In this document: positions 47,910-64,000 of the stretch, piece by piece | Position numbering within the stretch: position 1 is the stretch's first letter | Layout: each line of letters begins with the position of its first letter | The notes under the pieces: model-generated | What the model saw: only the letters and a program-made list of their open reading frames with translations | Told to the model about the DNA's origin: nothing | Databases searched by the model: none | Program-made: the position numbers and the translations under genes | NCBI GenBank assembly: GCA_027604185.1 | Contig: JADGKB010000019.1 | Span: 62,001-126,000 of the forward strand | Length of the DNA: 64,000 nt | Reading direction: 5' to 3' | DNA from: Boothiomyces macroporosus | Lineage: Eukaryota; Chytridiomycota; Chytridiomycetes; Rhizophydiales; Terramycetaceae

Positions 47910-48739
47910 ATGGATTTGCGGCTGACTTTTTCTTCCCCAGCAATGTATGTAACTCTGGTTTACTTGGGAGGTAACTATTCCTTAACCAGTAATTCTTTTA
48001 CCCGCATTGAGTTACTGTATGCTACTCCACCATTGGATTTCAAAATTTTCCCTGTTCATTTATGCGCTCACAGTTAGTTACACAGTCGTAAATCTATACA
48101 AAAGCGTTAATACAAACCCAGGATATGTGAAGCAGATGGAGTGTAAAACACCACTTACAGATGCGCTAATGGATGACTTGCTGTCGAAATACTGTCGGGA
48201 TTGCGATTCAGATAAACCATCCAGGGCACACCATTGCCGGAAATGCAGACGTTGTATTCATCGATTCGATCATCACTGTATTTGGATAAATAATTGTGTT
48301 GGATACTATAACCAAGGACATTTTATCCGGTTAATCTATGGTGCAACATTACTCTGCATTCAGTCACTGGTACTATTGGGATATGGTCTGATGCATTTAT
48401 TGCAAGCTGCTGAGGAGGACTATACATTTATTGAGGTACTCTATTCTAATTCAGGTTCTTTTGCTAGGCTCACTTTTAATTTTTCTCGTTCCTACCACAA
48501 CAATCCTCTCAATGCTTTGCTACAACCAAACTATACTTTTAATCAATAATCGAACGACTGTGGAGAACCTATCGTATATCGACGACAAAGAGATGGGAGT
48601 AGAGAAAAGTAATCCCTACGATTTGGGTTGGATTATCAATGTCAAGCAAATACTTGGTGATAATATATGGCTATGGATGGTTCCAAAAGATATGAAGCCA
48701 AAGGGAAACTATGAGTTGGCTGATCCATACTACTTTTAA
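47910..48739 (+). CDS. DHHC-type protein S-acyltransferase
   Basis: Start ATG at 47910-47912; two 19-nt introns give 263 residues. Topology: TM1-2 in the first about 65 residues, then YCRDCDSDKPSRAHHC, CRKCRRC and HRFDHHCIWINNCVG (Cys-rich DHHC domain with catalytic Cys), TM3-4 and a TTVENL motif (TTxE). NPGYV ahead of the Cys-rich domain is the DPG-like motif. Adds palmitate to cytosolic cysteines, probably at ER or Golgi. Short for the family. Converges on the ankyrin gene, 10 bp apart. Confidence 0.93.
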
Positions 48740-48749
48740 TATAAATAGT

Positions 48750-50375
48750 TTATTGCATTAAATCTCGTACTCTTGGATCACTTTTTAACAGCTCAACTAC
48801 TGCTTCGTGCCCATTTTCAAGCGCATTCTTTAGCGCTTCATTATTACCAGCAGTAGGATCAACTTTATCATTTTCTAATAATAGGTTTACAATATCATAA
48901 TGTCCAAGTTTGGCAGCAGTCTTGATTGAAAAGTTGTCTTGTGCCGATGCATCTACTCGTTCATCCTGTAATAGTAATCTCACTATTTCTATAAAATCAG
49001 GCTTGGCGCGATTGGCATAGTAGCCATATCTGTCTGTGAAACATTGCACTGCGTGTCTTATTGCATAGTTTAAATTGGCAGAGGGGTCTACTCTTTTGTC
49101 TGCCAGCAGTAGCTGGAAAATGTGCAGGTGACCTTCATTTGCAGCTGTTCTAATTGGTAAATTATCATCTGCTGCAATATCAACTCTATCATCATCAATA
49201 AGTAGTTTGACGATATCATAGTGTCCATGCCTGCATGCCCAAACTAAAGCAGCGTTATTTTGAGCCGCAGGGTTAACCCTTTGATCTTTGATGAGTAGTT
49301 CCACAATTTCAGTGTGGCCATTATGTGCTGCTGATTTAACAGCTTTATCATTTTCAGCAGACGGATCAACTTCAGGTAATTGTAGTAGATACCGCACCAA
49401 ATCTTCATACCCTTTATCTGCAGCATTTTTAATCAAAAAGTTGTTATTATCGTTTGCTTTTATCCTTCCATCTTTGAGTAATATTTCTAGAACATTTACT
49501 GAAATGGTGTTGGTGATCGCGACGTTGTTTAATGAAGGATCCACTCTACCGTCTTCTAGTAAAAGTTTCACAATTCCTGTATGGCCCTTGTTACATGCAA
49601 ATCGAAGAGCAAGATTGTTACTATCACACGGATCCACTCTGGGATCTTGAAGTAAAGTTTTCACAACCTGATATTTACCAGTTTGAGAAGCCAGTATGAC
49701 CGCTGCATTGTGCATAGTAGACGGATCTACTCTAGAATCTTTGAGGTACAGCTTTACTAATTCCAAATGCCCATATTTAGCTGCATTTCGGATACAGCAA
49801 TTGTAATTAACACCTGGATTAACTTGAGGGTTTTCAAGCAGAATTTTGGCGATTTCAGAGAACCCTCGGTCAGTAGCGATTCGAATTGCCATATTATCGT
49901 CGAATGTAACATCAACTGGAAAGTACTTTAGCATCTGACAGACTGCTGAACTAGACCCGCTTTCAACTATTTTCAAGAATATCCTGTTCAGCTCAACTTT
50001 ATCCACATTGTCAGTATTTTGAATCAAATCTATTGCTATCCAAGGGTGGAGTTTAATTTTCGGTTCCAGCAACTTTTTCAGTCCCAATAATTTTGTGTCG
50101 TTGACGATAGTCGGGTATTTTAACGACCTTTTGAATTGACAATAGTGACCATTCACCAAGCAAAACAGAAATGTATCCTGATTTATATCTTCTGATAGCA
50201 GTACCATATATTCGGAAGGATCTTTTGCCACTATCAATTCGCACGATTGGTAGTAGTATTTGAATCTGAAATGCGGCAGTGAGAAATCGCTTCTAATTGC
50301 GAATTTGATCTGCAGGAATTCCAGGTAATTTAAATGCTTTATGATTATGCCTAATTCGTTGAGTATTTTTTGCAT
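48750..50375 (-). CDS. Ankyrin-repeat protein
   Basis: A single exon of 541 codons from ATG at 50373-50375. About the first 165 residues are a non-repeat N-terminal domain; then about eleven ankyrin repeats of the type 'N.AI..A...GH..IVKLLL.D.RVDPS', ending at the stop at 48750. Repeats with RVDP signatures are common in expanded ankyrin families of amoebae, fungi and large viruses. No introns, unlike most neighbours. Its start codon is 55 bp from the left end of the mobile element. Confidence 0.9.
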   Translation of the reverse strand: MQKILNELGIIIKHLNYLEFLQIKFAIRSDFSLPHFRFKYYYQSCELIVAKDPSEYMVLLSEDINQDTFLFCLVNGHYCQFKRSLKYPTIVNDTKLLGLKKLLEPKIKLHPWIAIDLIQNTDNVDKVELNRIFLKIVESGSSSAVCQMLKYFPVDVTFDDNMAIRIATDRGFSEIAKILLENPQVNPGVNYNCCIRNAAKYGHLELVKLYLKDSRVDPSTMHNAAVILASQTGKYQVVKTLLQDPRVDPCDSNNLALRFACNKGHTGIVKLLLEDGRVDPSLNNVAITNTISVNVLEILLKDGRIKANDNNNFLIKNAADKGYEDLVRYLLQLPEVDPSAENDKAVKSAAHNGHTEIVELLIKDQRVNPAAQNNAALVWACRHGHYDIVKLLIDDDRVDIAADDNLPIRTAANEGHLHIFQLLLADKRVDPSANLNYAIRHAVQCFTDRYGYYANRAKPDFIEIVRLLLQDERVDASAQDNFSIKTAAKLGHYDIVNLLLENDKVDPTAGNNEALKNALENGHEAVVELLKSDPRVRDLMQ

Positions 50376-50430
50376 TTGGGATTAGGGGTGGAAAAAGTCT
50401 GGTGAGCTAAATTTTGGTTCCAATTAGAAT

Positions 50431-50480
50431 TGGGGGTTTCAAAACGCTAAAATTTTTTAGATGTACAACCAGAAAAATGT
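50431..50480 (+). repeat. Left terminal inverted repeat
   Basis: 50 bp starting TGGGGGTTTCAAAACG and ending CCAGAAAAATGT; pairs with 62729-62778 with four mismatches and no gap. Confidence 0.88.
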
Positions 50481-50690
50481 CAGCCACCATCCAAAATTTT
50501 TGATTGTTGCAAAAGGGCGTTCAAAACAGAATGAAAATTGTTTGTTATTGTCATGTGTAAAATCACATGACATCTTGATTTTGATTGGTCATTTTTTGTG
50601 TAACATCTGATGGTGAGGTATTTTTTTAGGTATAACTAATAAATATAGAAACACGTGATTTTTAACTATAAAGCTCATTAAAATTTCCAT

Positions 50691-51128
50691 ATGAAAAAAA
50701 ACATGGATAAAATTAAAAATTCTATCATAAGATTGACTGAAGAATATACTCCCCCAAATGACAGGCAAGGAATTTTATCTGGATTGCAAATATGGTTACG
50801 AAATTACACTCAAGAAATTTCACGAGTACCACCAACCTTTAACGAGATTAGCTTTACTCAACCTCGACCAATATCCGATCATTCAAATCTAGCACAATTT
50901 TCACAAATCCCTAACTTACCAATTCCATTACAAATTGGGTTTCCTAATATGAATGCTGAAATTTCTCAGATTAATAATGCTAGTGGGACCTTAGGTGTTA
51001 CAATAGAAACAATGCAAAGATGGTTAAGAGATTTCCAAAGATATGATCCTAGATTTGGTTATGTTAAACAATTTGAAATCACTCTTGGAAACAGAACTAC
51101 TCATGTAGTTTTCTTTAAATCTGAATAA
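50691..51128 (+). CDS. Cargo ORF, unknown (145 aa)
   Basis: Starts at ATG 50691 just inside the left end of the element. Soluble, with RQGILSGLQIWLRNYTQEI and a C-terminal GTLGVTIETMQRWLRDFQRY region that may be helical. No family recognised. CACGTG lies 33 bp upstream (50652-50657). Confidence 0.55.
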   Translation: MKKNMDKIKNSIIRLTEEYTPPNDRQGILSGLQIWLRNYTQEISRVPPTFNEISFTQPRPISDHSNLAQFSQIPNLPIPLQIGFPNMNAEISQINNASGTLGVTIETMQRWLRDFQRYDPRFGYVKQFEITLGNRTTHVVFFKSE

Positions 51129-51174
51129 ATCCAAATTTTGGTATTTAGTGTGTGATATTAAAATATGATTTATA

Positions 51175-51180
51175 ACGCGT
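51175..51180 (+). promoter_or_regulatory. ACGCGT box in the mobile element
   Basis: ACGCGT 39 bp upstream of the ATG at 51220, inside an AT-rich spacer. Confidence 0.3.
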
Positions 51181-51219
51181 TTAATGTTAAACTTTATTTG
51201 TATAATAAAATTATAAGAG

Positions 51220-51432
51220 ATGACAGGTCAGTATGATATGATGATTAATATTGTAGATGATAATATAACAGATGTATATTATAAGGACGGTATTAAATTA
51301 AATAAATTAAATAATGAGGATTTAGAAATAGAAAAGTTTCTATTAGATATAAATGACAACTCATACTTTGGGGGTATTCATTATGTGAATAACAAGTATA
51401 TACTTGTATATAAAAATATGACAAAAAAATAA
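51220..51432 (+). CDS. Cargo ORF, unknown (70 aa)
   Basis: Small acidic protein starting MTGQYDMMINIVDDN, very AT-rich. The stop codon lies within the left arm of a long perfect hairpin. No family recognised. Confidence 0.4.
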   Translation: MTGQYDMMINIVDDNITDVYYKDGIKLNKLNNEDLEIEKFLLDINDNSYFGGIHYVNNKYILVYKNMTKK

Positions 51433-51498
51433 TCGAATAAAGTTAAAATTCACGTGCAATATCACGTGAATTTTAACTTTATTCGATTATTTTTTTGT
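51421..51498. repeat. Perfect inverted repeat, 36-bp arms, 6-bp loop
   Basis: Arms 51421-51456 and 51463-51498 are exact reverse complements; the inner ends are CACGTG and the loop is CAATAT. It overlaps the end of the + ORF at 51220 and lies downstream of the − kinase-like gene, i.e. between convergent genes. Could act as a two-way terminator, or be two abutting terminal repeats. Confidence 0.85.
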
Positions 51499-51630
51499 GT
51501 AACATTGAAGTGTCAGTAAAGGAACCTACTAAGGATTTTAACCTGTTTCAAAAGCAGATGTATATGAATAGTTGCTTCTTTGGTAAATTATCTTTTGGGA
51601 ATTCAGTGATGTATTTATGTCCTTGTTTAT

Positions 51631-52575
51631 TCAATTGTTTAATATCTGTAACAAGCCACCTACACCATGAGGGAATTTATAACCATCATTTTTAAGGATA
51701 TTCCATAAACACTGTTTGCATTCATTAAGTGTTAATGGGTTTTGATTATTAATCAAAGAGATTATCTCCGGCGGAACGTCATTAACAAACAGATGATCGT
51801 CGATAAAATTGTTCAATCCTTCGCGGTCTCTTCCAAAATTGCTTATTGCTTCTTCATCAGTATTAGGAATATTGGCATCGTTGAAATCAATGAGAAACAA
51901 TTGTCTATCATTATCAATCATAACGTTTACGTTCCCTTCTGTACCCAAATCACTGATATCCTGGTGAAATACTCCACATATGTGCGAAGAAGCTAAAGCA
52001 AATATTAACGTTTTAAGCCACAAAGTGCGCTGATCGAAATCGAAATCAATGGCAATATCCCTACACAAGACCTGGCCGTCAATTCTTTTAAAAAACAGCC
52101 ATAGCAAGCATCGGTCACTGTCATAGGACCAACTTCTGAATTGACATAAGGGCATCCAGTCATATTGTCTTGTCCGAAAATTTGAATTAATTTCGGCAAT
52201 GGCATAATTCCGACGTTCCTGGTTATAAAGTCCAGGATAAACCTTCGCAACTAGTGCAATTGGGGCAAACCTATGTGTAGCATTAAAAACAGAGAAGGTT
52301 CCACCTTGTAAAGGGTTCGCAAGATCTATGTGAAAATGGTCTACAGGGGTAGGAACTCTATCGGCTATTATCGTTTCAGGACTTAAGTCCCTACGATATT
52401 GAACTAAAGCTTGGTAATAGTTGGCGATTTGATCGTCAGCATTTGGATCACCGTTTACTACTTTACCTTCCCAAATTGCATATGCACGCTTCTTAACTTC
52501 AATTTCAAAGTTTTCATCTTCAAAATCGGTACAAGGGTAAGGTTCTATTCGAGCATACTGAAATAAATCCATCAC
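51631..52575 (-). CDS. Cargo: protein-kinase-like protein
   Basis: 314 residues from ATG at 52573-52575. Kinase-like landmarks: ALVAKVY (a candidate VAxK lysine), then HQDISDLGTEGNVN (HxD catalytic loop with downstream Asn) and FLIDFNDANI, where the usual DFG reads DFN. The N-terminal part (DLFQYARIEPYPC) is specific. Because of the DFN motif it may be a pseudokinase or atypical kinase. No signal peptide or TM segment. Its 3' end faces the 51421-51498 hairpin. Confidence 0.55.
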   Translation of the reverse strand: MMDLFQYARIEPYPCTDFEDENFEIEVKKRAYAIWEGKVVNGDPNADDQIANYYQALVQYRRDLSPETIIADRVPTPVDHFHIDLANPLQGGTFSVFNATHRFAPIALVAKVYPGLYNQERRNYAIAEINSNFRTRQYDWMPLCQFRSWSYDSDRCLLWLFFKRIDGQVLCRDIAIDFDFDQRTLWLKTLIFALASSHICGVFHQDISDLGTEGNVNVMIDNDRQLFLIDFNDANIPNTDEEAISNFGRDREGLNNFIDDHLFVNDVPPEIISLINNQNPLTLNECKQCLWNILKNDGYKFPHGVGGLLQILNN

Positions 52576-52755
52576 GTTTCTTTTTTAACAGAGCAAATTG
52601 AAAAAATGGGCGTCTTGAAATGAGTGATCTCTGCGCCACACTATGTGACAGGCCACTCCTACGGCTACTCATTTCGCGTGTCACAGAAGTTAGCATTTTA
52701 TAAATCAATTAAAATTAGTTTAATTTAAAATATATTTCAATAAAAACATTTAATA

Positions 52756-53301
52756 ATGTTTCATTGGTTAACTTATCTTTATATTGATCAATTCATAAAA
52801 CATTGTAAAGATGATAATTTAATAAAAGCCAAAAAATTACTTAGATCTAATACTGTTTCCTATCTTAAATGGTTATATAAAGATTTTACATTAGTTGATT
52901 GTGAAAATTATTATTTGATTAAATATGCTGCTAGAAATGGGAAATTTGAATTATTTTCATTTCTATTTGATAACAATGCAAATATTCATATTAATAATGA
53001 TTACCCATTAAAACAGGCAATAGTGAATAATCACATGGAAATAGTCTATTTTATTCTAGATTATGCTAATAGAAATCAACAAAGTAGGATTGCGTTATTG
53101 TTATCAGCGCAATTAGGTAATTTTGAATTACTTAAACATATTATTGAAACAGGGATATCACCAGATATTGATGATTGTTCAGCTTTGAAATGGGCTATGA
53201 AAAATAAACATTATAACATTGTTAAATATCTAATTGAAATAGGTGCAAATCCAAAAGTTTTACAACAGGTTGATTATGTAACATTGATAAAGGATTTGTA
53301 A
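52756..53301 (+). CDS. Cargo: short ankyrin-like repeat protein
   Basis: 181 residues from ATG 52756. Degenerate ankyrin repeats: YYLIKYAARNGKFELFSFLF, YPLKQAIVNNHMEIVYFIL, SALKWAMKNKHYNIVKYLIE. Lys/Asn/Ile-rich and AT-rich, unlike the RVDP-type ankyrin gene just outside the element. Possibly an effector or interaction module. Confidence 0.65.
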   Translation: MFHWLTYLYIDQFIKHCKDDNLIKAKKLLRSNTVSYLKWLYKDFTLVDCENYYLIKYAARNGKFELFSFLFDNNANIHINNDYPLKQAIVNNHMEIVYFILDYANRNQQSRIALLLSAQLGNFELLKHIIETGISPDIDDCSALKWAMKNKHYNIVKYLIEIGANPKVLQQVDYVTLIKDL

Positions 53302-53339
53302 AAATAAAAAGTTGTATTAAAATTTATTTCACTGAAATA

Positions 53340-53345
53340 ACGCGT
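53340..53345 (+). promoter_or_regulatory. ACGCGT box in the mobile element
   Basis: ACGCGT, with TTTCGCG right behind it, 6 bp ahead of the ATG at 53352. Confidence 0.3.
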
Positions 53346-53351
53346 TTCGCG

Positions 53352-54308
53352 ATGGATGAATATACAATATTGACAACAAATAAGGGTGGAATTGCCGGAG
53401 CAATATTGCGAGAACAACATCAGAGAAAGGAAAAAGAAGAGCGTTCTTTATCTCTCTTAGAAGCAAAGATTAAACAATGTATTCGTATTAGAAATGGAAG
53501 GTTAGCCACAGGATATTTAATACATTATGAACATAATATGCGCGCCTTTAACAATAATTTCATAGTGTCTGATAGTTCAGTATGCGACGAAAATTGTACC
53601 CGAGAGTTATGTAAAGGGATACGTACAAAATTGTTACCAAATATACAAATTGATGCAGATGGTATTAAATCTTTGCATCTTAAAAAGTGGATTAGATTTG
53701 TATATTGGGCAGCATTTGGGATTTTCCTAATTATACCAGTCCTTGCTGCAGTCGCTGATTTTACACATTTCTTTCCCGCTCCAATAGCTACACTTATATC
53801 AACTGTACTTGCATTCTTTGTTGCCCAAGTGGCCGGTCAATTGTGTCCATATTGGTTCAAGAATGATCAGATAGTAGATTTGCTTAAAGAAAGGCTATTA
53901 TTTAGTAGTCTCGGGAGATACGCAAAATACGCAGGTTACTCTGAAGATGAGATTGTAAAATTATTATGGGCTAAAGATGGGAGACGTGGAGCTTTTATAG
54001 GAGAAAATGGCTATGGTTTCATGCAAAAAGAAAATGGAAAATTGGAATTAACAAATGGAGTACCTATAGATATGTTACGATTTCGTAGCTGGTATATATG
54101 TAGATCACAAAAAGGTAATCATGTTTTGGTAAGAGTTACACATGGAGGACTTATTAAAACAAGAGGACCTATTCTTGATGATGGACCAGAAGTATATTAT
54201 TGTACTGTAGTCAAACAAATCCCATTAATACTTCATACTAAATGGGAAATATATAGAATTTCCGATGAAGAAGCGTGGTTTGAAGTAGCTGAAGGTTATT
54301 TAGCTTAA
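53352..54308 (+). CDS. Cargo: two-TM protein of unknown function
   Basis: 318 residues from ATG 53352. N-terminal basic helix with REQHQRKEKEERSLSLLEAK, two adjacent membrane segments (FVYWAAFGIFLIIPVLAAVA and PIATLISTVLAFFVAQVAG), then a soluble C-terminal domain of about 140 residues with FIGENGYGFMQKENGK and RFRSWYICRSQKGNHVLVRV. No family recognised. Confidence 0.6.
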   Translation: MDEYTILTTNKGGIAGAILREQHQRKEKEERSLSLLEAKIKQCIRIRNGRLATGYLIHYEHNMRAFNNNFIVSDSSVCDENCTRELCKGIRTKLLPNIQIDADGIKSLHLKKWIRFVYWAAFGIFLIIPVLAAVADFTHFFPAPIATLISTVLAFFVAQVAGQLCPYWFKNDQIVDLLKERLLFSSLGRYAKYAGYSEDEIVKLLWAKDGRRGAFIGENGYGFMQKENGKLELTNGVPIDMLRFRSWYICRSQKGNHVLVRVTHGGLIKTRGPILDDGPEVYYCTVVKQIPLILHTKWEIYRISDEEAWFEVAEGYLA

Positions 54309-54466
54309 ACGTTTGGAAATCTTTATTTACAAAAGATGATATTTTTTGATTAAGAATAAAATATAAAAATATACGGAAATTTACTTAATGTTGTTTGGCT
54401 TTTAATATTGGTAGAATATTAATAGGTGTGGCTTTCGTGGAGTAAAACTTTTCTCAAAAAACAAAT

Positions 54467-55630
54467 ATGCCCAAAGTATCAACTAGAAAATTCACTCTCG
54501 AACAAATTGACAAACTTCTTTTTCATTTAATTTTATTCATGAATTCAAATGAAAATGATACTGAAATAGAGGAATTAATGGAACTCAAAGCTCACATTTT
54601 ATCATACAGATACTTTGGACCTTCTGTTTCAATTCCTAAATCCTTAGAACACAGGGTTTTACTTCTCACTTTACCAACTAATGAATTCCGACAAGCTTTT
54701 CGAATGAACAAGGATACTTTCAACTTTATTCTCAGCAGAATTGAAGACCATCATATTTTCAGGACCGATAACTATCATAAACAACAACCTGTTTGGGTCC
54801 AGTTATTACTTGCATTAGAAAGATTTGGATTTGATGGTAATGCTTGTTCTGTTGGTAAAGTTGCTAGGAATATGGGTATTGCAAATGGAACTGTAATTTT
54901 GTATACAAATCGTGTGATAGAAGCATTGATGTCATTAGAAACTACTTATATCAAATGGCCTTCTCCTGCTAGACGTAAAAGAACAAGTGACTATTTTGAA
55001 GCAAATCACAATTTCAAAGGATGTGTTGGTGTAGTTGATGGCACATTAGTCAATTTATGTCAGAAACCTTCTATTGATCCAGAGACTTATTGGTCAAGAA
55101 AACAAAGATATTCGATGAACGTCCAAATTGTATGTAATCATAAACGAGAAATAATTTATTATCAAGTAGGATATCCAGGTTCTTGTCATGATGCTATGTG
55201 TTTTGGAAATACTAATCTTTGTAAATACCCAGAAAGATATCTATCAAATGGAGAATACCTAATGGCAGATGGAGGATATTCATTAAGTCCAAATCTCTTG
55301 GTGCCATATAGAAATCCTCAAAGTGAAGAAGAATTGGAATTTAATGCGAAATTATCATCGGCAAGAATAATAGTGGAACATGTAATGGGATTATTGAAAG
55401 GGAGATGGAGTTCATTAAGAGGGCTTAGAGTACAATTACAAAAGAAAGAAGATACAGAAAGGATTAATAGATGGATAGTATCATGTTTAATACTGCATAA
55501 TATGGTGATGAAGTTTAGAGATAACTGGGAAGAAGAGAATACAGAAGATGAAGTAGATGATATAATAATAGAGAATATTGAGGAGACAGGAACAGAATTA
55601 AGAGAAAGGATAAGGGAAATGATATTGTAA
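54467..55630 (+). CDS. PIF/Harbinger (HARBI1-like) DDE transposase
   Basis: 387 residues from ATG 54467, no intron. An N-terminal helix-turn-helix-like region (ACSVGKVARNMGIANGTVIL) precedes a DDE_Tnp_4 domain: first Asp in GCVGVVDGTLVN, second Asp in GSCHDAMCFG, Glu in ARIIVEHVMGLLKGRW. The frame is intact and all three catalytic residues are present, so it may be active. Harbinger transposases need a Myb-like partner, supplied by the gene at 57569-58682. Confidence 0.9.
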   Translation: MPKVSTRKFTLEQIDKLLFHLILFMNSNENDTEIEELMELKAHILSYRYFGPSVSIPKSLEHRVLLLTLPTNEFRQAFRMNKDTFNFILSRIEDHHIFRTDNYHKQQPVWVQLLLALERFGFDGNACSVGKVARNMGIANGTVILYTNRVIEALMSLETTYIKWPSPARRKRTSDYFEANHNFKGCVGVVDGTLVNLCQKPSIDPETYWSRKQRYSMNVQIVCNHKREIIYYQVGYPGSCHDAMCFGNTNLCKYPERYLSNGEYLMADGGYSLSPNLLVPYRNPQSEEELEFNAKLSSARIIVEHVMGLLKGRWSSLRGLRVQLQKKEDTERINRWIVSCLILHNMVMKFRDNWEEENTEDEVDDIIIENIEETGTELRERIREMIL

Positions 55631-55778
55631 TAAATTTCAAAATTAACAAAATTTTATTTGTACTAAGAAATATTTGTTAACGTGTCACCAGCTTATTTTT
55701 ATTTGGTGTAACATGGCTCGAATGTTTTGTTTATTAAATAAACCAATCAAATTAAATTATAATGGTCTCGTGAATAAA

Positions 55779-55857
55779 ACGCGTTACTAATCAAAATAAA
55801 GATCAATCATATTACTAAAGCACGTGTTAGAATATTCTCGGCCAATGTGTATAAAAG
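55779..55857 (+). promoter_or_regulatory. Promoter-like cluster: ACGCGT, CACGTG, CCAAT, TATAAAAG
   Basis: Ahead of the protease ATG at 55889: ACGCGT at 55779-55784, CACGTG at 55821-55826, CCAAT at 55842-55846 and TATAAAAG at 55850-55857 (32 bp upstream). Function inferred from motif content. Confidence 0.45.
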
Positions 55858-55888
55858 GATTAGGTTTTCTACATGATCTAAAAAAAAC

Positions 55889-56527
55889 ATGAATCGTCAT
55901 CAATTAATGGAAAAAACTTGCTCTGTATGTTGTAAAAATGGAGAAGAAATAATTTCACTTGCATCTGGGTTTGTTATTCTCAACAAAGGTCAGTTTATAT
56001 TCATTACTGCAAGACATGTTTTAATGGACGCTAAAAAGTTGATGATTGAAAAGAAGTTTCAATCACCGTTATTTTTGGTTTGGCCAGAAAGAAAAATTGA
56101 AACTACTCTAGACTCTGAACCTTCAAATTGGAACTTGAATGAACAACTTGATTGTGCATGGTATAAACTTGAAAATATTGAAGGTTTTGATTGGGAAAGT
56201 ATTAGAATACCGGTAATGAATGAACTATCTTTTGGAGATAGAACTTTATGGCATTCTGGTTTTCCTCTAGGCGTGGGAAATGGTGCTTTTTCCAGACCTA
56301 CTATTGTAACCTCTTTTCGTGTTCATGAGCCTGGATTTTGTTTCACTGTTGACTCGGGAATGGGAGGATTCAGTGGTGGTCCAGTAGCAGTCTTATCAAT
56401 CGAACAAGGGATTGGTTTTACCTATGAGCATCCTACTTACGGTGTAATTGGTGTTCATACAAGTACGCTTACTAGAAATGCTGGAACTATGGGAAGATTT
56501 AGTTTGCTCTATAAAATATTGGAATAA
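55889..56527 (+). CDS. Cargo: trypsin-like serine protease
   Basis: 212 residues from ATG 55889. Chymotrypsin-fold triad by position: His in FITARHVLMD, Asp in EQLDCAWYKLE, Ser in GMGGFSGGPVAVL. No signal peptide, propeptide or TM segment, so probably cytosolic or nuclear. Cys-rich N-terminus (CSVCCKNG). The sequence resembles HtrA/viral-type small trypsin-like domains more than secreted trypsins. Confidence 0.8.
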   Translation: MNRHQLMEKTCSVCCKNGEEIISLASGFVILNKGQFIFITARHVLMDAKKLMIEKKFQSPLFLVWPERKIETTLDSEPSNWNLNEQLDCAWYKLENIEGFDWESIRIPVMNELSFGDRTLWHSGFPLGVGNGAFSRPTIVTSFRVHEPGFCFTVDSGMGGFSGGPVAVLSIEQGIGFTYEHPTYGVIGVHTSTLTRNAGTMGRFSLLYKILE

Positions 56528-56745
56528 ACTTGAAACCCCAAATTAGGGATTATTTTTGTGTTATTAGGTTTTAGATAAGAAAGTTCTTTCTTAATATGTT
56601 CAATATCAAGTTTTATTTGTTTTATGTCTTGAGAATGATTACATTTTATTACTCCATCTATAATTGACACTCCGATCTTGTTATCCATTATTATAATAGA
56701 GACAATAATAATTTTTTCCTTTTTAACACAAAAATATCCTGTCAT
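56509..56745 (-). CDS. Cargo ORF, small unknown (78 aa)
   Basis: ATG at 56743-56745; hydrophobic N-terminus (KKEKIIIVSIIIMDNKIG) and a helical middle (DIEHIKKELSYLK). Its 3' end overlaps the protease stop by 19 bp on the opposite strand. Weakly supported. Confidence 0.3.
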   Translation of the reverse strand: MTGYFCVKKEKIIIVSIIIMDNKIGVSIIDGVIKCNHSQDIKQIKLDIEHIKKELSYLKPNNTKIIPNLGFQVYSNIL

Positions 56746-56764
56746 ATATAAATACTTATAAAAT

Positions 56765-56935
56765 ATGGTCTGCAGTCATTGCAAAGATCCCACTCACAAT
56801 AAGACCACCTGTCCTGAACTGGCATTAGTATCAACAGGTCAGGCTAAAATAGGATATGTTGCTCAAGATAGAGAAAATAAGGATCATCCAGCTAATAAAG
56901 TTGGTGCCAAAGAAATAATAGATGCTAATAAGTAG
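56765..56935 (+). CDS. CCHC zinc-knuckle microprotein (56 aa)
   Basis: ATG 56765 to TAG at 56935. The N-terminus MVCSHCKDPTHNKTTC is a CxxCx4Hx4C zinc knuckle, normally used for single-stranded nucleic acid binding; the rest is hydrophilic (GYVAQDRENKDHP). Divergent from the small − ORF at 56509-56745, 19 bp apart. Not previously visible as a long frame. Confidence 0.55.
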   Translation: MVCSHCKDPTHNKTTCPELALVSTGQAKIGYVAQDRENKDHPANKVGAKEIIDANK

Positions 56936-57042
56936 TACATGCTCCATTTGGCAGAACGTTTTTGCTGAATATTCTACAAATTGATTAAATAAAAAATTAT
57001 AAAATTGAAAACTGATTTATAGATAATTATATTGAAAAAGAA

Positions 57043-57318
57043 ATGCTTCCTAGTGAACTCAATAGTGAAATTCCTAAATCTGTCTTACGTTTTATTTGGT
57101 CCACCAAAGTCCTAAAAGCTGGACTTGGCGTTCAATCTGAAACCGAAGTTAGAGATTGGTTCCATAATAATCCTCATATTCTTCACGAATTTGAAAAATT
57201 AAACCATCAATTACTTCTAGGTATCAAAGAACTTCAACAAAACGCTATCAATGGTTTGAAAAATGAAACAAGAGATGATAAATTATTCAATTCTAATAAA
57301 AGATTTAGAATTGAATAA
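57043..57318 (+). CDS. Cargo: small protein, intact paralog (91 aa)
   Basis: Starts MLPSELNSEIPKSVLRFIW; contains LGVQSETEVRDWFHNNPHI and GIKELQQNAINGL. Shares the pattern 'LGV..E.E.R.WF..N' with the frameshifted copy at 58810-59117. Function unknown. Confidence 0.6.
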   Translation: MLPSELNSEIPKSVLRFIWSTKVLKAGLGVQSETEVRDWFHNNPHILHEFEKLNHQLLLGIKELQQNAINGLKNETRDDKLFNSNKRFRIE

Positions 57319-57429
57319 TTTTTAAAAAGACCATTTCGGACAGATTTGTCCGATCCGTGATTTTATCCAAAAATAATTAGAGATTTATAGATAAAAATCA
57401 TTAGAATAAGCAAAATTTTTGTTTGTTTC

Positions 57430-57470
57430 ATAATAAATAGTCCTATTGTGAATATAGGACTATTTATTAT
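57430..57470. repeat. Inverted repeat, 17-bp arms
   Basis: Arms 57430-57446 and 57454-57470, perfect, around a 7-nt loop; between the convergent genes ending at 57318 and 57569. Confidence 0.7.
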
Positions 57471-57530
57471 AAAACATTTTATTATTTTTGTTACTATAAA
57501 AAATGGTATATGTTGAAACTAAGCTTCAAC

Positions 57531-57569
57531 AATTATATCTTCAGAGACTTTTTCGCTGAAGATATAATT
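57531..57569. repeat. Inverted repeat, 14-bp arms at a gene end
   Basis: Arms 57531-57544 and 57556-57569, directly at the 3' end of the Myb-like gene; likely transcript-end signal or hairpin (inference). Confidence 0.6.
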
Positions 57570-58682
57570 TACTTTAACAATTCAAGTAATTCCTTGATTT
57601 CTTCATGAGATTTCCCCTGAGATATCATCTCCTTAACCAATTGCATCTTGGATTGTTTCGCTTGAAATTCCATTTCTTCTCTTCGAAGTTTTATATTCGC
57701 ATCCAATTCTTTCTCTTTGATCTCAACTTCTTTATCCAATTTAGTTTTATGCAATTGCAATTCTTGTTGCTTGAATTCAACTTCCTTCTCTTTGATTTCA
57801 ACTTCTTTATCCAATCTTACTTTATGTAATTGTAACTCCTTTTGTTTAAATTCAACCTCTTGATGTTTGAATTCAACTTCCTTTTCAAATTTCTCTTTTT
57901 GCAGTTTAATTTCTACTTCCTTATATTCCTTCTCCATTACCCATTTCTCTTTTTGGCTAGTTATATATGATGTAGTGAAATCTGCTCTTCCATTCTTTCC
58001 TGAAGAGTTTGTTTTAGAATTATTTGGAGATTTTGAATTCGTTTGTTCCTTTTCATTAGAAGATGTTGTTTGCTTCTTCTTTGGACTTTCTACAATTTCA
58101 ATCTCCTCTGGCGTTTTTCTTTTGTTATTAACATTGATAGCTACATTATCAATTGGACTAATATGAACTGATCCCAATGAACTACTTAATTCATTTTCAT
58201 CAACTACTATCTACATATTAATAATTCTTTACATTGGTACTTCTTTCAGGAATTTGAATTGGTTCAACAGAGGTTTCCAAAATATTAAATGGATTAATAT
58301 TTTGACGTTGTCCAAATAATTCATTTAATTCCTTATAGAAAAAAGGACAGGCTTCTTCAATTTTTTCCATGTTTTCTTCGGTTTTGGACAATTCATTTGC
58401 TTTTTTGAATTTTCCAATTAACCAAAGATATTTTGCTTTTGCTTGATCTGCATCCAAGTCTGTATTATTCTTTTCATTGATTGCTTTAGCAAGTGAAGCA
58501 TATGCATCTTTCTTCTTTAACTTCTTTCCAGAAATAACAGGACTTCCGAATGCTGCTGCACCAGTAATGAGGAGGAAATTGTCTTTGATTTGGAGCCAAC
58601 GGACAATACTTTCTTGAATAGCAAGAGAAGTTTTGGTTTTAGGAGCCATTTTTGGAGAAGAAAAAAACTTGATCAGAAACAT
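57569..58682 (-). CDS. Myb/SANT-like DNA-binding protein, transposase partner
   Basis: Start ATG at 58680-58682, with an alternative in-frame Met (MAPKTKTSLAI) 11 codons later. A 22-nt intron near 58189-58210 with the host-type TTAATATGTAG end fuses two frames into 363 residues. The N-terminal about 110 residues form a Myb/SANT or MADF-like trihelix (ESIVRWLQIKDNFLLITG, DQAKAKYLWLIGKFKKA); the C-terminal half is a long coiled coil with repeats of EVEFKQ.ELQLHK. Harbinger elements typically encode such a protein to bind the ends and aid transposase nuclear import. Confidence 0.75.
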
Positions 58683-58809
58683 GAAACATTACAAACAGAT
58701 ATTCGTTAGATAGGTTATTTCACAAATGGTATACTTAATAATCATTAAAATCGGTCCGATTATAGTATTTTAATATAAATCGGTCCGATTTATATTATAA
58801 GTATATACT

Positions 58810-59117
58810 ATGATAGGAGGATATTTACCCAAGGAAACACCCAATTCAAAACTTAATAAAACCATATTAAGAACACTTTGGAATAACACTCTTGTTTCAA
58901 AGTCATTAGGTGTTAAGAATGAAGATGAGGCACGTGAATGGTTTAATAAGAATAAAGATGCTCATGTGAAGTTTGAAGAATGGAACAAGGAACTAGAAAG
59001 AAGATAAAAGAGTTACAAAGAAAGGCAGGTGATTACCTGTCTTCATTTAGAGAACCCAAGTCTCATAAGAGAAGTAATAAATCACGAATACCAAAAACAA
59101 AGAAATCTAAGATATAA
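58810..59117 (+). pseudogene. Frameshifted paralog of the 57043 gene
   Basis: The first frame (MIGGYLPKETPNSKLNK ... LGVKNEDEAREWFNKNK ... ERR) stops at 59005-59007. In the −1 frame the sequence continues KIKELQRKAGDYLSS ... TKKSKI, which matches GIKELQQNAINGL of the intact copy. The break is in an A/G-rich stretch near 58995-59008, with no mini-intron to explain it. Confidence 0.6.
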
Positions 59118-59568
59118 TTCTATGATAATCTGAAAATCTATCAAACCATATAAATTCATATGAAATTCTCATATTATCGTAAATCATTTGTTTTTCTATC
59201 TAAACTCCGAAATTTGGTCTAATTTCTTCAAAGTATATAATGGCACATGTTGAACTTCCTAATTCTTATTCTATTCTATTTTGTATTTTCTAAACCTTGT
59301 TTCCTGATCTAAGAGATCTGAAAAATTTTAGATCTTACATCTCGAAACTTTTATTTCGTCTTTTGTCATTTACATTTAAGGAAAATCTTTAGAAAACACA
59401 ACAGATATGTAAATATAGTTATATAAATGAATACTATCTAATAGAATGCATAAGAACAACATAGAATTACACGAAATGTTTATTTAATTGTTTATTACAC
59501 CAGTCGTGACTGACCTCATTCATTTAAATAGCGCGTTTTAACATCTTTCTCTTTCTAATTAAATACAA
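59118..59568. other. AT-rich spacer inside the element
   Basis: About 450 bp with no supportable frame. GCGCGT at 59531-59536 lies 33 bp ahead of the next gene, a one-base variant of the ACGCGT box. Confidence 0.4.
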
Positions 59569-61038
59569 ATGTTTCTCCTGTCTGTGTTATTCTTGTCTGC
59601 CGCTTGTTTCCATATTCTTATGGCTGTCAATGTAATGCAAAATGGTACTGCAGTCGCCACTGGTAATTGGACTTCTATTGGCCCTGTTACTAACTTGACC
59701 TCTGTCTCCAATTTAACTCTTATAGTTGGTTCCGCTAACTCGCAGAACTCCTCTGGACTTAACAAAAGAGATACTGTTTCCTACACCATTTATGGCGGTG
59801 GTTCTTACACCATCAATTTTAATGCTGCTACTTCTAATGTCAATTTTGCTCTCCAAAGTCCTGCTACTTACACTCTTGACTACTACTTTATGCTAACAAG
59901 CAATGTTGCTGCCTGTACACAAAACCTGTTCTATAGTTGTATATATTTCTCTGCCTGTTCATGTATTGGTGTTACAAGCTGTAATATTCAATGTTCTGTG
60001 GATACTAGTAAATCTTATTCTTTGGTTATAGGAAGTCCAAATTATCTGCAAACTACATCATCTGGGACATTGACAACTTATGTATGTGCATCAGGATATT
60101 ATGGTTCCTCTGGTAATTGTTTATCATGTTCAGCAGGAAGTTATTCTAAATCAGGTTCTTTATATTGTTCTACTTGTCCAGCCGGAAGTTATTCAAGTGC
60201 TGGCTCTTCTTATTGCTATACATGTTCTGCGGGAACCTATTCTTCTGCTGGGTCATCCTCATGTTCTACTTGTGCAGCTGGAACTTACTCTACAGCAGGA
60301 TCATCTTCATGTTCTAAATGTGCAGCTGGAAGTTATGCAATTGCAGGGTCATCTTCATGTACTAATTGTTTAGCCGGAACTTATTCTACAGCAGGTTCTA
60401 CTTCATGTTCAACTTGTGCGGCTGGAACTTACTCGTATCTTGGATCCAGTTCTTGTTCAACTTGTTCAGCTGGGACTTATTCTGGTTCAGGTTCTTATAG
60501 TTGTTTTAATTGTGATGCTGGAACTTACTCATCCACTGGTTCTTCAACTTGTTCTAATTGTCCAGCAGGTACTTATTCTACAACTCAAGGAGCTACATCA
60601 TCGAGTGTATGTAATACATGTCAAGCTGGAACATATTCTACAGATGGTTCATCATCATGTTCTACTTGTACTGCAGGAACCTATTCAGCAGCAGGAGCCT
60701 CTACTTGTTCTACTTGTCCTGCAGGAACTTCTTCACCTTTTGGAGCTTCATCATGTACTCAATGTTATGCAGGAACATACTCATCTGCAGGTGCTTCTTA
60801 CTGTCCTGGCTGTCCATATGGAACTACATCGACCGCAGGAGCTTCATATTGCTCTTCTACTAGTTCTACTGGATCTACTGGGTCTAATGGCAATACTGGA
60901 AATACTAATACAATTGGATCAAATGGAAATACTAATACAGCTGGATCTACAGGAAATACAAACAAACCAAGTGGGGCTATTAAGAACGCGTCATTTGGTT
61001 TAATTTGGGTATCAGGAGTAGTAATAATGATGTTCTAA
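59569..61038 (+). CDS. Cargo: Cys-rich GCC2/GCC3-repeat surface protein
   Basis: 489 residues from ATG 59569. Signal peptide MFLLSVLFLSAACFHILMA; an N-terminal domain with several Asn-glycosylation sites; about a dozen tandem repeats of roughly 24 residues of the type 'CSTCAAGTYSTAGSSS' (GCC2/GCC3 ephrin-receptor-like); a Ser/Thr/Gly/Asn-rich stalk; and a C-terminal hydrophobic tail (FGLIWVSGVVIMMF) without charged end, as in GPI-anchored proteins. Likely displayed on the cell surface. DNA-level repeats make the copy number prone to change. Confidence 0.85.
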   Translation: MFLLSVLFLSAACFHILMAVNVMQNGTAVATGNWTSIGPVTNLTSVSNLTLIVGSANSQNSSGLNKRDTVSYTIYGGGSYTINFNAATSNVNFALQSPATYTLDYYFMLTSNVAACTQNLFYSCIYFSACSCIGVTSCNIQCSVDTSKSYSLVIGSPNYLQTTSSGTLTTYVCASGYYGSSGNCLSCSAGSYSKSGSLYCSTCPAGSYSSAGSSYCYTCSAGTYSSAGSSSCSTCAAGTYSTAGSSSCSKCAAGSYAIAGSSSCTNCLAGTYSTAGSTSCSTCAAGTYSYLGSSSCSTCSAGTYSGSGSYSCFNCDAGTYSSTGSSTCSNCPAGTYSTTQGATSSSVCNTCQAGTYSTDGSSSCSTCTAGTYSAAGASTCSTCPAGTSSPFGASSCTQCYAGTYSSAGASYCPGCPYGTTSTAGASYCSSTSSTGSTGSNGNTGNTNTIGSNGNTNTAGSTGNTNKPSGAIKNASFGLIWVSGVVIMMF

Positions 61039-61156
61039 CGTGATAAGCATACCTTTCCCAATGGGTTTTAATGGTGCTTAATAAACTAACCTTTTTTACG
61101 TCGTATAATAATTTTGTTGCGTATAAAAATAATATAAAAATTATGTATTCTTATTA

Positions 61157-61333
61157 ATGATGACCGGTTTATTTACTATTAAAAGAAATAATTATAAAAA
61201 CAATTGTGACCTAATTTGTCCTTTAGAGTTAGCAACTTGTATGGAAGAACTTCCATACCCAAAAAGTATCAGATATTATGATAGAAGATGCCTTTATTAT
61301 AGAAAAGCATTAATAGTTCCTATGGTATCATAA
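61157..61333 (+). CDS. Cargo ORF, small basic Cys-containing protein (58 aa)
   Basis: ATG 61157 (MMTGLFTIKRNNYKNN) to TAA at 61333, with CDLICPLELATC and YYDRRCLYYRKA. No family recognised; support is codon continuity and position only. Confidence 0.35.
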   Translation: MMTGLFTIKRNNYKNNCDLICPLELATCMEELPYPKSIRYYDRRCLYYRKALIVPMVS

Positions 61334-61408
61334 CTACCACTTTGTCAGAATTTAAGTCATTCAAATAAAATTTTATAAAGCTTAGAAACTCTAAGTATAT
61401 CCTCAAGG

Positions 61409-61456
61409 TAATATGAGTAAACCTCTTAGGAATTCCTAAGAGGTTTACTCATATTA
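61409..61456. repeat. Perfect 48-bp palindrome
   Basis: Arms 61409-61432 and 61433-61456 with no loop; 15 bp downstream of the − nuclease-like gene's stop. Same placement as the hairpin at 51421-51498. Confidence 0.85.
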
Positions 61457-61471
61457 TATATTTTTTAATTT

Positions 61472-62467
61472 TTATTCTGTAGAAACCCTATCAAACCCAT
61501 CTTGATCTGATTGTTCAGACCCAAAATGTTTGGAAATAGCTTCAATGTTTTCATTAATTCTTTCATCGGATAGCTCTGTAGTTGAACATCTTGGAGATAT
61601 CAATTTCATAGAATTAAAGAACCAATATAACCACTTCCAAATTAGCTTCAACGATTTACTAGATTCCCAGGACTTTCCTTTTACTAACTTTATCTCAGAA
61701 CCTGATGAGTAAACTACACCTTTGATATCAATAGCATAAAATTTGAAGAATCTAGAGTTTGTGAGTATCGCAAAGACTGGTGTTTTCTTTCCAGCTTTTA
61801 ACCGATTCTTCAATAGACATCCTGCTTCTGTTATTACTTGTGCGACTGCCTGATCAGGCCATTCACGTTTTGCTTCTACAGCTATAATAAAAGAGTCTAT
61901 CTTTGATGCTGGTGAATCTTTAAACTGACCAGAACCGATCATATAATCTACAAATCCCCTATAGGAAACACCAGCTGTTTCACAAGAATTATTAACTTCT
62001 CCAAACGCGCGTAGTTTGCTTTTTTGTCCATTTGCATGTGAACGTAATGCACATGCAAATATTGCATCTATTTTAGATCTACACATAAATTCGTGATTGA
62101 AAACCCATACGCTTTCTAACATCTCCAAATAGTCACATAGTAATTTTGTTGGTACCAGATCTTTTCTTTCTTGTATTTCCATAGGTAAATGAAGAGTGGT
62201 TATATCTTCATATTCTTCTGTAACATACTGTAAATTAAGATGTAATCCATCATCTCTTTCACAATCCTTAAAAGTGGCTTTCGATAATTTAACCTTCTTT
62301 TTCTTTTTATTAATATTTTCCTTTTTTAATATTCCCTTTTCAGTTTCCTCAAGTTCATTTTCGATTTTTTGAAAATTGAAAATGTCAGTTGTTGTTACAG
62401 GTTCTTTTTTGATGTACTTCACAGAATTATCCTTTTTTGAGATTTTAATAACTTCTCCAGATGTCAT
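61472..62467 (-). CDS. Cargo: PD-(D/E)XK nuclease-like protein
   Basis: 331 residues from ATG at 62465-62467. A Lys-rich N-terminal third (KKKKVKLSKATF) is followed by a nuclease-like core: GFVDYMIGSG (candidate Asp), IDSFIIAVEAKRE (E-x-K) and DQAVAQVITEAG (Gln), the motif order of the PD-(D/E)XK superfamily. Similar domains occur in Crinkler-type effectors and in element-encoded proteins of fungi. No signal peptide. Could serve the element or attack other DNA; not determinable. Confidence 0.65.
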   Translation of the reverse strand: MTSGEVIKISKKDNSVKYIKKEPVTTTDIFNFQKIENELEETEKGILKKENINKKKKKVKLSKATFKDCERDDGLHLNLQYVTEEYEDITTLHLPMEIQERKDLVPTKLLCDYLEMLESVWVFNHEFMCRSKIDAIFACALRSHANGQKSKLRAFGEVNNSCETAGVSYRGFVDYMIGSGQFKDSPASKIDSFIIAVEAKREWPDQAVAQVITEAGCLLKNRLKAGKKTPVFAILTNSRFFKFYAIDIKGVVYSSGSEIKLVKGKSWESSKSLKLIWKWLYWFFNSMKLISPRCSTTELSDERINENIEAISKHFGSEQSDQDGFDRVSTE

Positions 62468-62474
62468 TGTTTAA

Positions 62475-62526
62475 TTTTTCAGGTTAATAAAAAAAATTTT
62501 TCAATTTTTTTTATTAACCTGAAAAA
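62475..62526. repeat. Inverted repeat, 24-bp arms
   Basis: Arms 62475-62498 and 62503-62526, perfect, 4-nt loop; starts 8 bp upstream of the nuclease-like gene's start codon, so here the hairpin is at a 5' rather than a 3' end. Confidence 0.8.
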
Positions 62527-62728
62527 AATCAACCAATAAAATCAAGACATCCTCTAACCTCCCACGTAACTATAACAATCAGTTTTCACTACCAACTTCC
62601 TAGTACAAATGAATATTTATATCAGAAAAATTCTTAAAATCATATGATATATCACGTGATTTTAAGTAATTTTGGTTGTTTTTCAACATCTGTTTGTATG
62701 TCAGTTTTTTGTTTCAGATTTCACATTC

Positions 62729-62778
62729 ACATTTTTCTGGATGTACATCTAAAAATTTTTTACGTTTTGAAACCCCCA
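62729..62778 (-). repeat. Right terminal inverted repeat
   Basis: Reverse complement of the left repeat at 46 of 50 positions; ends immediately before AAT and the TTA of the tryptophanyl-tRNA synthetase stop codon. Confidence 0.88.
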
Positions 62779-62781
62779 AAT

Positions 62782-64000
62782 TTATTCAATTTTCAATTCT
62801 TGCACTTGAGGAACACATGGTTTCATAGAAGCATCCTTTGGGATTGTTGGGTTCATGAATTGGTCGACCAATTCGTCAGTTACAGTAGCGCGTATCTAAG
62901 TTACATGAATAGTACCTCTTGAATACCCTTTACTAGTTCTTGTACGACAGCAATACATTTTTGCTTAAGTTGGCCGGTGCTCATTTCACCAGAACTATAT
63001 TGCTTTTCAATCAATGCAAGTTCTTCATCGTCTTCCAAAAAGAATTTGAGGTACTGGAAGGAAACATCAACCTCACAGTTTCCACCGTGTAATCTGTGCA
63101 GTTCAGCGGTATCTTGACCACCGCTGAATGCGTATTTGTTGATCTTGTTTTTGATTTGGTTTGGAGTGTCATTAATGAAGATGGCTGAGGTAGTAATAGA
63201 TGCAGACATCTTTGTACCTGGGCCTTGCAATGCTGGGAAGAACCTATCGTTAGACTGTTCTTGAGCAACAAATATAGTGAAACTTACTTTGCATGGATCA
63301 ACGAAGGCTTGTGGTACTTTAACTTTTGTGCAACTTCTCTAGTTAATCTGAAATATGGATCTTGATCGATTGCGCATGGAACTAGACATGGAATATTGGC
63401 AGTTCCAAAGATATGAGGGAATGAGTTAGAGAAAGATGGCGATGCTTGCACAGATACGAAATGCAATTTGCCGATATTGTCACTGTCATTAAATCCAAAG
63501 GTGGCCCTAGATTGGTTGGTAGTAATTGATTTGGCAACTTTGATGACATTCTTGTAGAATGGCCCACTAACATGAATCAATAATCACCTCATGTAATCCA
63601 AATCGGAAAAGATAAAAGTCTTTTTAGGATCAAATCCAAATGACATGATATCCTTTGCGTTTTCAATGGCGAATTTGTGAGCATCGTCGATTTTCAAGTC
63701 TGGGTTGAAGATAAACTTTTCATCATCAGTCAATTGGATCACTAATGCTGCACCAAAGACATCCTGCAGCCACTTGCAAAACAAGAACGGAATCATGTGG
63801 CCGACATGCATGCTTCCACTAGAAGGGCCTCTTCCAGTATACAAATAGAAGGGCTTTCCTTTTTCATATAAATCTAGAATCTTGTTGAACTCTCTGAAAT
63901 TAATACAATGCACCTGTGGGAGAAGAACAATCCTCTGCGTAAAAACACATGAGGTCTGACTCCAGTAAGTTTTTCCAATCTGTCTAGCATTGGCTGGTCG
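62782..64000 (-). CDS. WARS1: Tryptophanyl-tRNA synthetase (cytosolic), 5' partial
   Basis: Class I aminoacyl-tRNA synthetase charging tRNA-Trp. The gene enters from the right edge (visible start [16 protein letters not shown]) and ends at a TAA at 62782-62784. Motifs: [11 protein letters not shown] (HIGH-type), [22 protein letters not shown] (KMSKS-type) and C-terminal [13 protein letters not shown]. Introns: 20 and 21 nt, one of 44 nt (longer than the rest), and 20 nt before the last exon. The stop is 3 bp from the mobile element's right end, so the normal 3' flank of this essential gene has been displaced. Confidence 0.95.

Follow-up and report, generated by a model that had tools for sequence, protein, structure and literature searches.

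The 64,000-bp stretch of the Boothiomyces macroporosus genome (Chytridiomycota, Rhizophydiales) analyzed here, C19:62001-126000 and hereafter the window, contains at positions 50,431 to 62,778 what we consider, with a probability of about 80%, to be a single PIF/Harbinger-superfamily DNA transposon, autonomous now or until recently, in which accessory genes have accumulated. The unit spans 12,348 bp between two AAT trinucleotides and holds about eleven genes, namely a transposase, its presumed partner and nine accessory open reading frames (ORFs). We read it as one long-lived element because of its terminal inverted repeats (TIRs), its borders in base composition, a second copy on contig C66, and the low GC content of its third codon positions (GC3). 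Searches of the own genome refer to the B. macroporosus assembly of 15.2 Mb in 216 contigs.

The TIRs are about 50 bp long, contain GGGGG, and form the top inverted match in the window at spacings of 0.5-20 kb (75 bits; the runner-up scores 39). Their core GGGGGTTTCAAAACG, with at most two mismatches, occurs in the window at both ends only, against a shuffling expectation of 0.05. An 80-nt end query produced three matches in the genome, i.e., both window ends and C66:73892. With at most one mismatch, the 15-nt core GGGGGTTTCAAAACG was found at five places in 15.2 Mb vs. two for the reversed control, and since this control also yields two, the additional matches at C91:45940 and C17:144858, which resemble the TIR over the first ~26 bp, are not safe. 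Both were rejected as elements: on C91, a 115-bp inverted repeat (74%) begins 30 bp inside with its arms 1.9 kb apart and a far end without the core, and on C17 there is no inverted partner within the 10 kb examined.

The same borders emerge from composition. Maximum-likelihood segmentation of the whole 64 kb with two breakpoints, based on GC only and with the ends not supplied, returned one AT-rich block at 50326-62801 with a log-likelihood gain of 94.5; the exact TIR coordinates give 92.0, whereas no other low-GC segment of the window exceeds 9.6. The GC content is 0.318 between the ends vs. 0.383 in the remaining window, and on C66 the single GC change point is located 55 bp from the TIR. 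These observations bear on the explanation that chance or unrelated inverted repeats surround ordinary host genes. Relatives of the nuclease-like and surface-type proteins do exist elsewhere in the genome, but the same end adjoins the same transposase on C66, segmentation by GC alone recovers nearly identical borders, and the cargo has low GC3; we regard this explanation as already contradicted and give it almost no weight.

The transposase ORF is complete and intact. Its catalytic triad (D191, D268, E304) is kept in 12/12 aligned proteins, comprising the window protein and 11 of the 56 relatives found. The closest relatives, at 62-74% identity, are unnamed metagenome proteins, and the named ones include proteins from Circinella (39%) and Puccinia (35% at best). 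Other matches in the own genome, on C32, C90, C97, C85, C204, C178, and C21, are partial or distant. An initial annotation, made from the sequence alone, had claimed 50-bp TIRs 12.3 kb apart, flanking AAT on both sides, and a complete HARBI1-like DDE transposase, and all three claims were borne out.

The second copy preserves the same core with a different load. The left end on C66 and the adjacent 180 bp are 85% identical to the left end in the window, and the gene for the 318-aa protein and then the transposase gene follow in the same order and on the same strand (83% nucleotide identity over 2.3 kb). Between the copies the transposase is 96% identical in amino acids and the 318-aa protein 70%. 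Nonsynonymous (dN) and synonymous (dS) divergence by NG86 are 0.020 and 0.42 for the transposase (353 codons), which is under purifying selection, and 0.19 and 0.46 for the 318-aa gene (313 codons); other methods place dS at 0.29-0.68 and 0.33-0.77, respectively. The similar dS values of the two genes suggest joint descent, with the transposase strongly constrained and the 318-aa gene changing faster. Two such distant, AT-rich copies would fit separate arrivals as well as an old duplication. The same end beside the same transposase also runs counter to the view, raised in the initial annotation, that the TIRs might be unrelated short repeats.

Beyond the left end and the 318-aa/transposase block, no nucleotide match was found inside the C66 copy. 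It otherwise holds two ORFs (224 and 95 aa) and a zinc-knuckle/protease-like gene that is divided among three ORFs, all with weak Pfam matches below the cut-off; the first of these three ORFs (183 aa), used for the comparison, is not alike to the window protease (BLASTP E 0.69). A surface-protein gene is located just outside the C66 end, and the relative of the 318-aa protein encoded on C66 is HK103_006285. The contig terminates in two tandem units of 1.82 kb with 99.6% identity (C66:77656-81300), which hold the tail of the transposase and the zinc-knuckle/protease-like gene and are perhaps a recent duplication or an assembly effect.

Codon composition links most of the cargo to the element. 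GC3 is 0.15-0.32 in 12/12 element frames (the partner counted as two), including 0.25 for the zinc-knuckle frame, and 0.19-0.23 in four element ORFs of C66, vs. a mean of 0.378 (standard deviation 0.029, minimum 0.333) in 17 mechanically chosen non-overlapping ORFs of at least 200 aa from window positions 1-50400. Relatives of the cargo outside the element have higher GC3 than the element genes: 0.325-0.396 vs. 0.238 for the nuclease-like gene, with relatives on C137, C98, and C66, and 0.299 vs. 0.188 for the surface-protein gene; for the partner, 0.313 and 0.339 stand against 0.24-0.28. Hence, most of the cargo seems to have long shared the composition of the element, the kinase-like gene least clearly.

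The features of the element are collected below.

Table. Features of the 12.3-kb element and its flanks (positions in the window; hyphen in the strand column, reverse strand).
Feature	Position	Strand	Evidence or remark
Left AAT flank, presumed target site duplication (TSD) of 3 bp	50428..50430		sequence
Left TIR	50431..50480	+	46/50 identity to the right TIR
Subterminal TCATGTG	50551..50557	+	lines up with TCACGTG in the right end and in the left end on C66
CACGTG	50652..50657		others at 51451, 51463, 55821, 58931, 62653
145-aa ORF, unknown	50691..51128	+	no Pfam match above cut-off
78-bp hairpin, perfect 36-nt arms	51421..51498		between convergent ORFs; two CACGTG inside
Protein-kinase-like ORF, 314 aa	51631..52575	-	Pfam Pkinase E 0.026, below cut-off; PADLOC PD-T4-6 E 4.1e-5
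Ankyrin-repeat ORF, 181 aa	52756..53301	+	Ank_2 E 2.1e-17
318-aa protein, two adjoining hydrophobic segments	53352..54308	+	hydropathy; weak SLATT match, E 0.027
HARBI1-like DDE transposase, 387 aa	54467..55630	+	DDE_Tnp_4 E 2.7e-38
Trypsin-like protease ORF, 212 aa	55889..56527	+	Trypsin_2 E 1.7e-4, below cut-off
Zinc-knuckle ORF, 56 residues plus stop	56765..56935	+	motif scan only
91-aa ORF, unknown	57043..57318	+	
Hairpin, 17-nt arms	57280..57321		overlaps the end of the 91-aa ORF
Near-perfect hairpin	57424..57476		between convergent ORFs
Presumed second Harbinger ORF, Myb-like, charged coiled-coil-like tail	57569..58682	-	two frames
Cys-rich surface-type protein, 489 aa, N-terminal hydrophobic segment	59569..61038	+	Ephrin_rec_like E 5.9e-22; hydropathy
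48-bp perfect palindrome	61409..61456		between convergent ORFs
PD-(D/E)XK-like nuclease ORF, 331 aa	61472..62467	-	PADLOC PD_DExK E 2.8e-4
Hairpin, perfect 24-nt arms	62475..62526		
Subterminal TCACGTGA	62652..62659		~120 bp from the right end
Right TIR	62729..62778	-	pairs with the left 50-bp end
Right flanking AAT	62779..62781		sequence

The presumed partner lies in two frames (58218-58682 and 57569-58177) with a break near 58200; judged by eye, a frame break would fit, as would a very short intron. Its designation as Myb-like comes from the initial annotation and from its position, since no Myb/SANT profile matched at E-values up to 10, a search in which the HMMER filters discard most weak matches. 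The best solved-structure match is Taf250 (E 0.056, weak). In the own genome it is 55% identical to an uninterrupted ORF on C29, also of 318 aa, and a distant relative adjoins a transposase fragment on C90; the remaining three relatives lie on contigs (C29, C104, C208) absent from the list of transposase matches. Of the partnership claimed initially, the C90 neighborhood speaks in favor, and the missing Myb/SANT match and the split frame speak against. Directly upstream of the presumed partner gene, at 58748-58807, a 29-bp repeat containing AATCGGTCCGATT is present twice and may provide binding sites.

Among the accessory ORFs, Pfam matches above the cut-off were obtained for the ankyrin and surface proteins only. 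The nuclease-like protein has no Pfam match; in an alignment of 19 sequences its D...ExK motif is kept as D174 in 19/19, E198 in 13/19, and K200 in 16/19. Most of its 19 database relatives are metagenome proteins without a name, the others including Kappamyces (a chytrid) and one liverwort record. No useful solved-structure match was found for the kinase-like, protease, and nuclease-like proteins, and the kinase-like ORF and the window protease each match only themselves in the own genome. Weak matches to models of bacterial defence proteins (PD-T4-6, 4.1e-5; LmuA, 0.0017; SduA, 0.009; SLATT, 0.027) are suggestive of conflict-type genes, yet insufficient for assignment. The initial annotation had listed about ten unrelated cargo genes; nine accessory ORFs stand, two of them with firm domain matches, whereas the kinase, protease, and nuclease matches are weak and the zinc knuckle is a motif match.

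A less favored explanation, to which we nevertheless grant an appreciable chance short of even odds, is a nested composite, in which a short Harbinger element (ends, transposase, partner, and perhaps the 318-aa gene) received successive insertions of mobile or host sequence. The cargo would then be an accidental load that may block mobility, which is compatible with a single transposon but lessens its meaning. Consistent with such an origin, about 2.5 kb alone are common with the C66 copy and similarity is lost on both sides, the kinase-like gene has a GC3 (0.324) nearest to that of the host, and all five strong hairpins of the element lie in parts not common to C66 and could be insertion scars. 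On the other hand, Pfam scans of eleven element ORFs at E 0.1 (the zinc-knuckle ORF was left out, as were overlapping ORFs in antisense or shifted frames) showed no second transposase, the composition breaks coincide with the ends, and the frames of the cargo are open. The 78-bp palindrome, the one that was tested, has its own place as its sole match and was rejected as a dispersed repeat; internal end pairs were not systematically searched.

The hairpins themselves stand out within the DNA sampled. Five strong hairpins (score at least 16, loop at most 12) occur in the 12.3 kb of the element, whereas the remaining 51.7 kb of the window has none, and none were found in 33.3 kb of C66 (element copy included), in 87.1 kb of eight other regions, or across 40 Markov simulations of the element. 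Convergent ORFs flank three of the five. Their position at gene ends is reminiscent of Mimiviridae, where transcripts are terminated by hairpins (PMC4402537). Together with the AT-richness and the ankyrin and kinase-like genes, the hairpins between convergent genes could speak for an integrated large DNA virus, or a virus-derived element, that captured a Harbinger transposase. A viral origin inferred from the hairpins is not supported. The Pfam scans of element ORFs showed no viral replication or capsid match; the transposase, kinase-like, nuclease-like, and ankyrin proteins were unconfirmed in viral contigs, where pattern-based scans (protease, 318-aa, and surface proteins left out) find close relatives only; and among the nuclease relatives unnamed metagenome proteins predominate, beside single records from a chytrid and a liverwort. 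We hold a viral origin to be highly improbable. Pattern-based scans with the transposase over viral and genome contig collections confirmed no other copies of the element, and Rfam at the gathering threshold gave 0 matches at window positions 48000-64000.

The motif CACGTG is concentrated in both copies, with six occurrences in the element (Poisson P 3e-6, or 5e-5 if the two within one palindrome are merged as one) and three in the 5.6 kb of the C66 copy (P 8e-4); these P values are optimistic because the motif was picked after being seen. Outside both copies it occurs once vs. 13.9 expected in a 164.7-kb sample, making it the most depleted of 64 palindromes there. Across the genome CACGTG is under-represented, with 479 occurrences in 15.2 Mb vs. 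1301 of the reversed pattern. A related motif, TCAYGTG, lies in each of the three observed ends, some 120 bp inward, and may for this reason be a binding site.

The neighbors of the element are a 541-aa ankyrin ORF on the left, whose start codon is 55 bp away from the element end, and on the right an ORF with a tRNA-synt_1b match that terminates 122 bp from the element. Around the transposase matches on C32, C90, C97, and C85, translated comparison found no cargo; transposase sequence is present there, plus the partner on C90. No matching end pair was seen near the nuclease genes on C137, C98, and C66 or the C66 surface gene in the stretches examined, and this result is incomplete because the C98 and C137 genes sit near contig starts. 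At C85:27962-32268, inverted ends of about 40 bp, GGGG(G)T(T)TCAGACCT, surround a transposase fragment and a 663-aa ORF, which from its appearance we take to be galactose-oxidase-like; matching 3-bp flanks were not seen by eye, and the locus may represent a further pair of Harbinger ends enclosing a host-type gene. A MITE-like (miniature inverted-repeat transposable element) stretch of about 770 bp at C32:60030-60797 has 37-bp inverted ends starting with GGGGGTTT.

For the transposon proposed here, we infer excision and insertion, the role of the partner, and any benefit from the load. The transposase and the presumed Myb-like partner would bind the ends, and perhaps also TCAYGTG about 120 bp inside; the 12.3-kb unit would be excised and then inserted with a 3-bp duplication. 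The transposase, the ends, and the 318-aa gene would form a core that is kept together, and the other accessory genes would be a changeable load that differs between copies, with some families also present elsewhere in the host. In an extended form, which we consider speculative and rather unlikely, chytrids would harbor a class of large Harbinger elements that move between lineages, with a fixed core (ends, transposase, the 318-aa protein with two transmembrane segments) and an exchangeable conflict-type load (kinase-like protein, proteases, PD-(D/E)XK nuclease, ankyrin, zinc knuckle, surface protein), whose expression would be tied to a host regulator by the E-box-like CACGTG near both ends and before several genes.

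Several observations weigh against the reading as one cargo-bearing transposon. The genome search for the TIR, proposed in the initial annotation, yielded the copy on C66 but no empty site, as the joined flanks (251 nt) match only their own two flanking places, and a single presumed TSD is observed (AAT/AAT of the one complete copy). The PIF/Harbinger superfamily prefers TWA targets, which AAT does not fit. Two copies in total are known; the right end of the C66 copy lies beyond the contig, the copy being cut off within the tandem duplication, and a TAG occurs close to the C-terminus of its transposase. The 318-aa gene is the sole accessory gene seen in both copies, and its protein has its sole database match in Boothiomyces itself. 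Judged by eye from the listed lengths of their longest contigs, no nuclease relative (0/19) appears to share a contig with a transposase relative, most contigs being short. The split partner ORF is without profile support, and the kinase, protease, and nuclease labels come from weak profile matches. The GC3 of the kinase-like frame (0.324) leaves a small gap to the host minimum, and genes outside the element on other contigs reach equally low values (0.295-0.325). The five hairpins are missing from the C66 copy, and by ratio in the element CACGTG is fourth of 64 palindromes, behind CGCGCG, GCGCGC, and ACGCGT. Of the cargo-bearing element initially proposed, the TIR boundaries, the composition borders, and a second copy with another load are established, whereas travel of cargo with the ends is partly supported, namely for the 318-aa gene only.

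The comparison with known systems draws on extracts of the cited papers. PIF/Harbinger elements usually have TIRs of 25-50 bp and, when autonomous, typically two ORFs (PMC9179366). The element shares with them a DDE_Tnp_4 transposase with its triad and the 50-bp TIR features, the TIR being repeated at the left end on C66, and departs from them in its 12,348 bp and about eleven genes; as the two-ORF content is typical but not defining, this mismatch marks a variant. Members of the Nuwa lineage encode two proteins, a transposase and a Myb/SANT protein, and produce a 3-bp TSD (PMC12730594). The intact triad, the ~50-bp ends with GGGGG, the 3-bp flanking repeat, and the probable second ORF resemble Nuwa, whereas the length of 12.3 kb, the nine further ORFs, and a partner without a profile match do not.

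The initial annotation had supposed an element without precedent or name, and this does not hold. PHISTA elements of the Harbinger superfamily in rust fungi carry a TET/JBP dioxygenase and a third gene, number about three genes in all, lack a Myb protein, and show TA duplications; HarbingerS carries a SET methyltransferase; and IS3EU elements, from another superfamily, carry TET/JBP and an alpha-kinase gene (PMC12730594). Like the present element, these transposons, found in fungi or oomycetes, carry more genes than the transposase, and Puccinia is among the named transposase relatives; in contrast to PHISTA and HarbingerS, the element has AAT flanks and no TET or SET Pfam match among the ORFs scanned. 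That Harbinger-superfamily elements with a few extra genes are already described also counts against the novelty of our reading. In the passages seen from one open-access library, no Harbinger element was found that is autonomous and has some nine accessory ORFs, which is not proof that none is in print.

Polinton/Maverick elements have capsid genes. Their other hallmarks are a protein-primed PolB and a retroviral-like integrase (PMC6431247); unlike them, the element showed none of the hallmark genes in the Pfam scans of its eleven ORFs. The same source, in whose main text Harbinger is not mentioned, states that transposition efficacy drops above 6 kb of cargo. The large fungal gene carriers in the literature extracts are the Starships of Pezizomycotina, which have a tyrosine-recombinase captain (DUF3435) and reach ~700 kb (PMC12134995, PMC12506042), and ToxhAT/ToxTA, a 14-kb TIR transposon with ToxA (PMC12506042). 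Copy-specific cargo alongside a conserved mobility gene resembles the Starships, although no DUF3435 captain was found among the eleven element ORFs. ToxhAT, likewise a fungal class II element, is similar in size and also has TIRs and passenger genes; it differs in that it is described as non-autonomous and Tc1/mariner-like, with a TA duplication, and in occurring in Ascomycota. If our reading is true, a chytrid DDE cut-and-paste element with many accessory genes would be a Harbinger-type gene carrier and would broaden the concept to early-branching fungi and a further class of enzyme; its end sequence can be used to look for further elements, and the AT-rich block, low GC3, and clustered CACGTG suggest discovery by composition.

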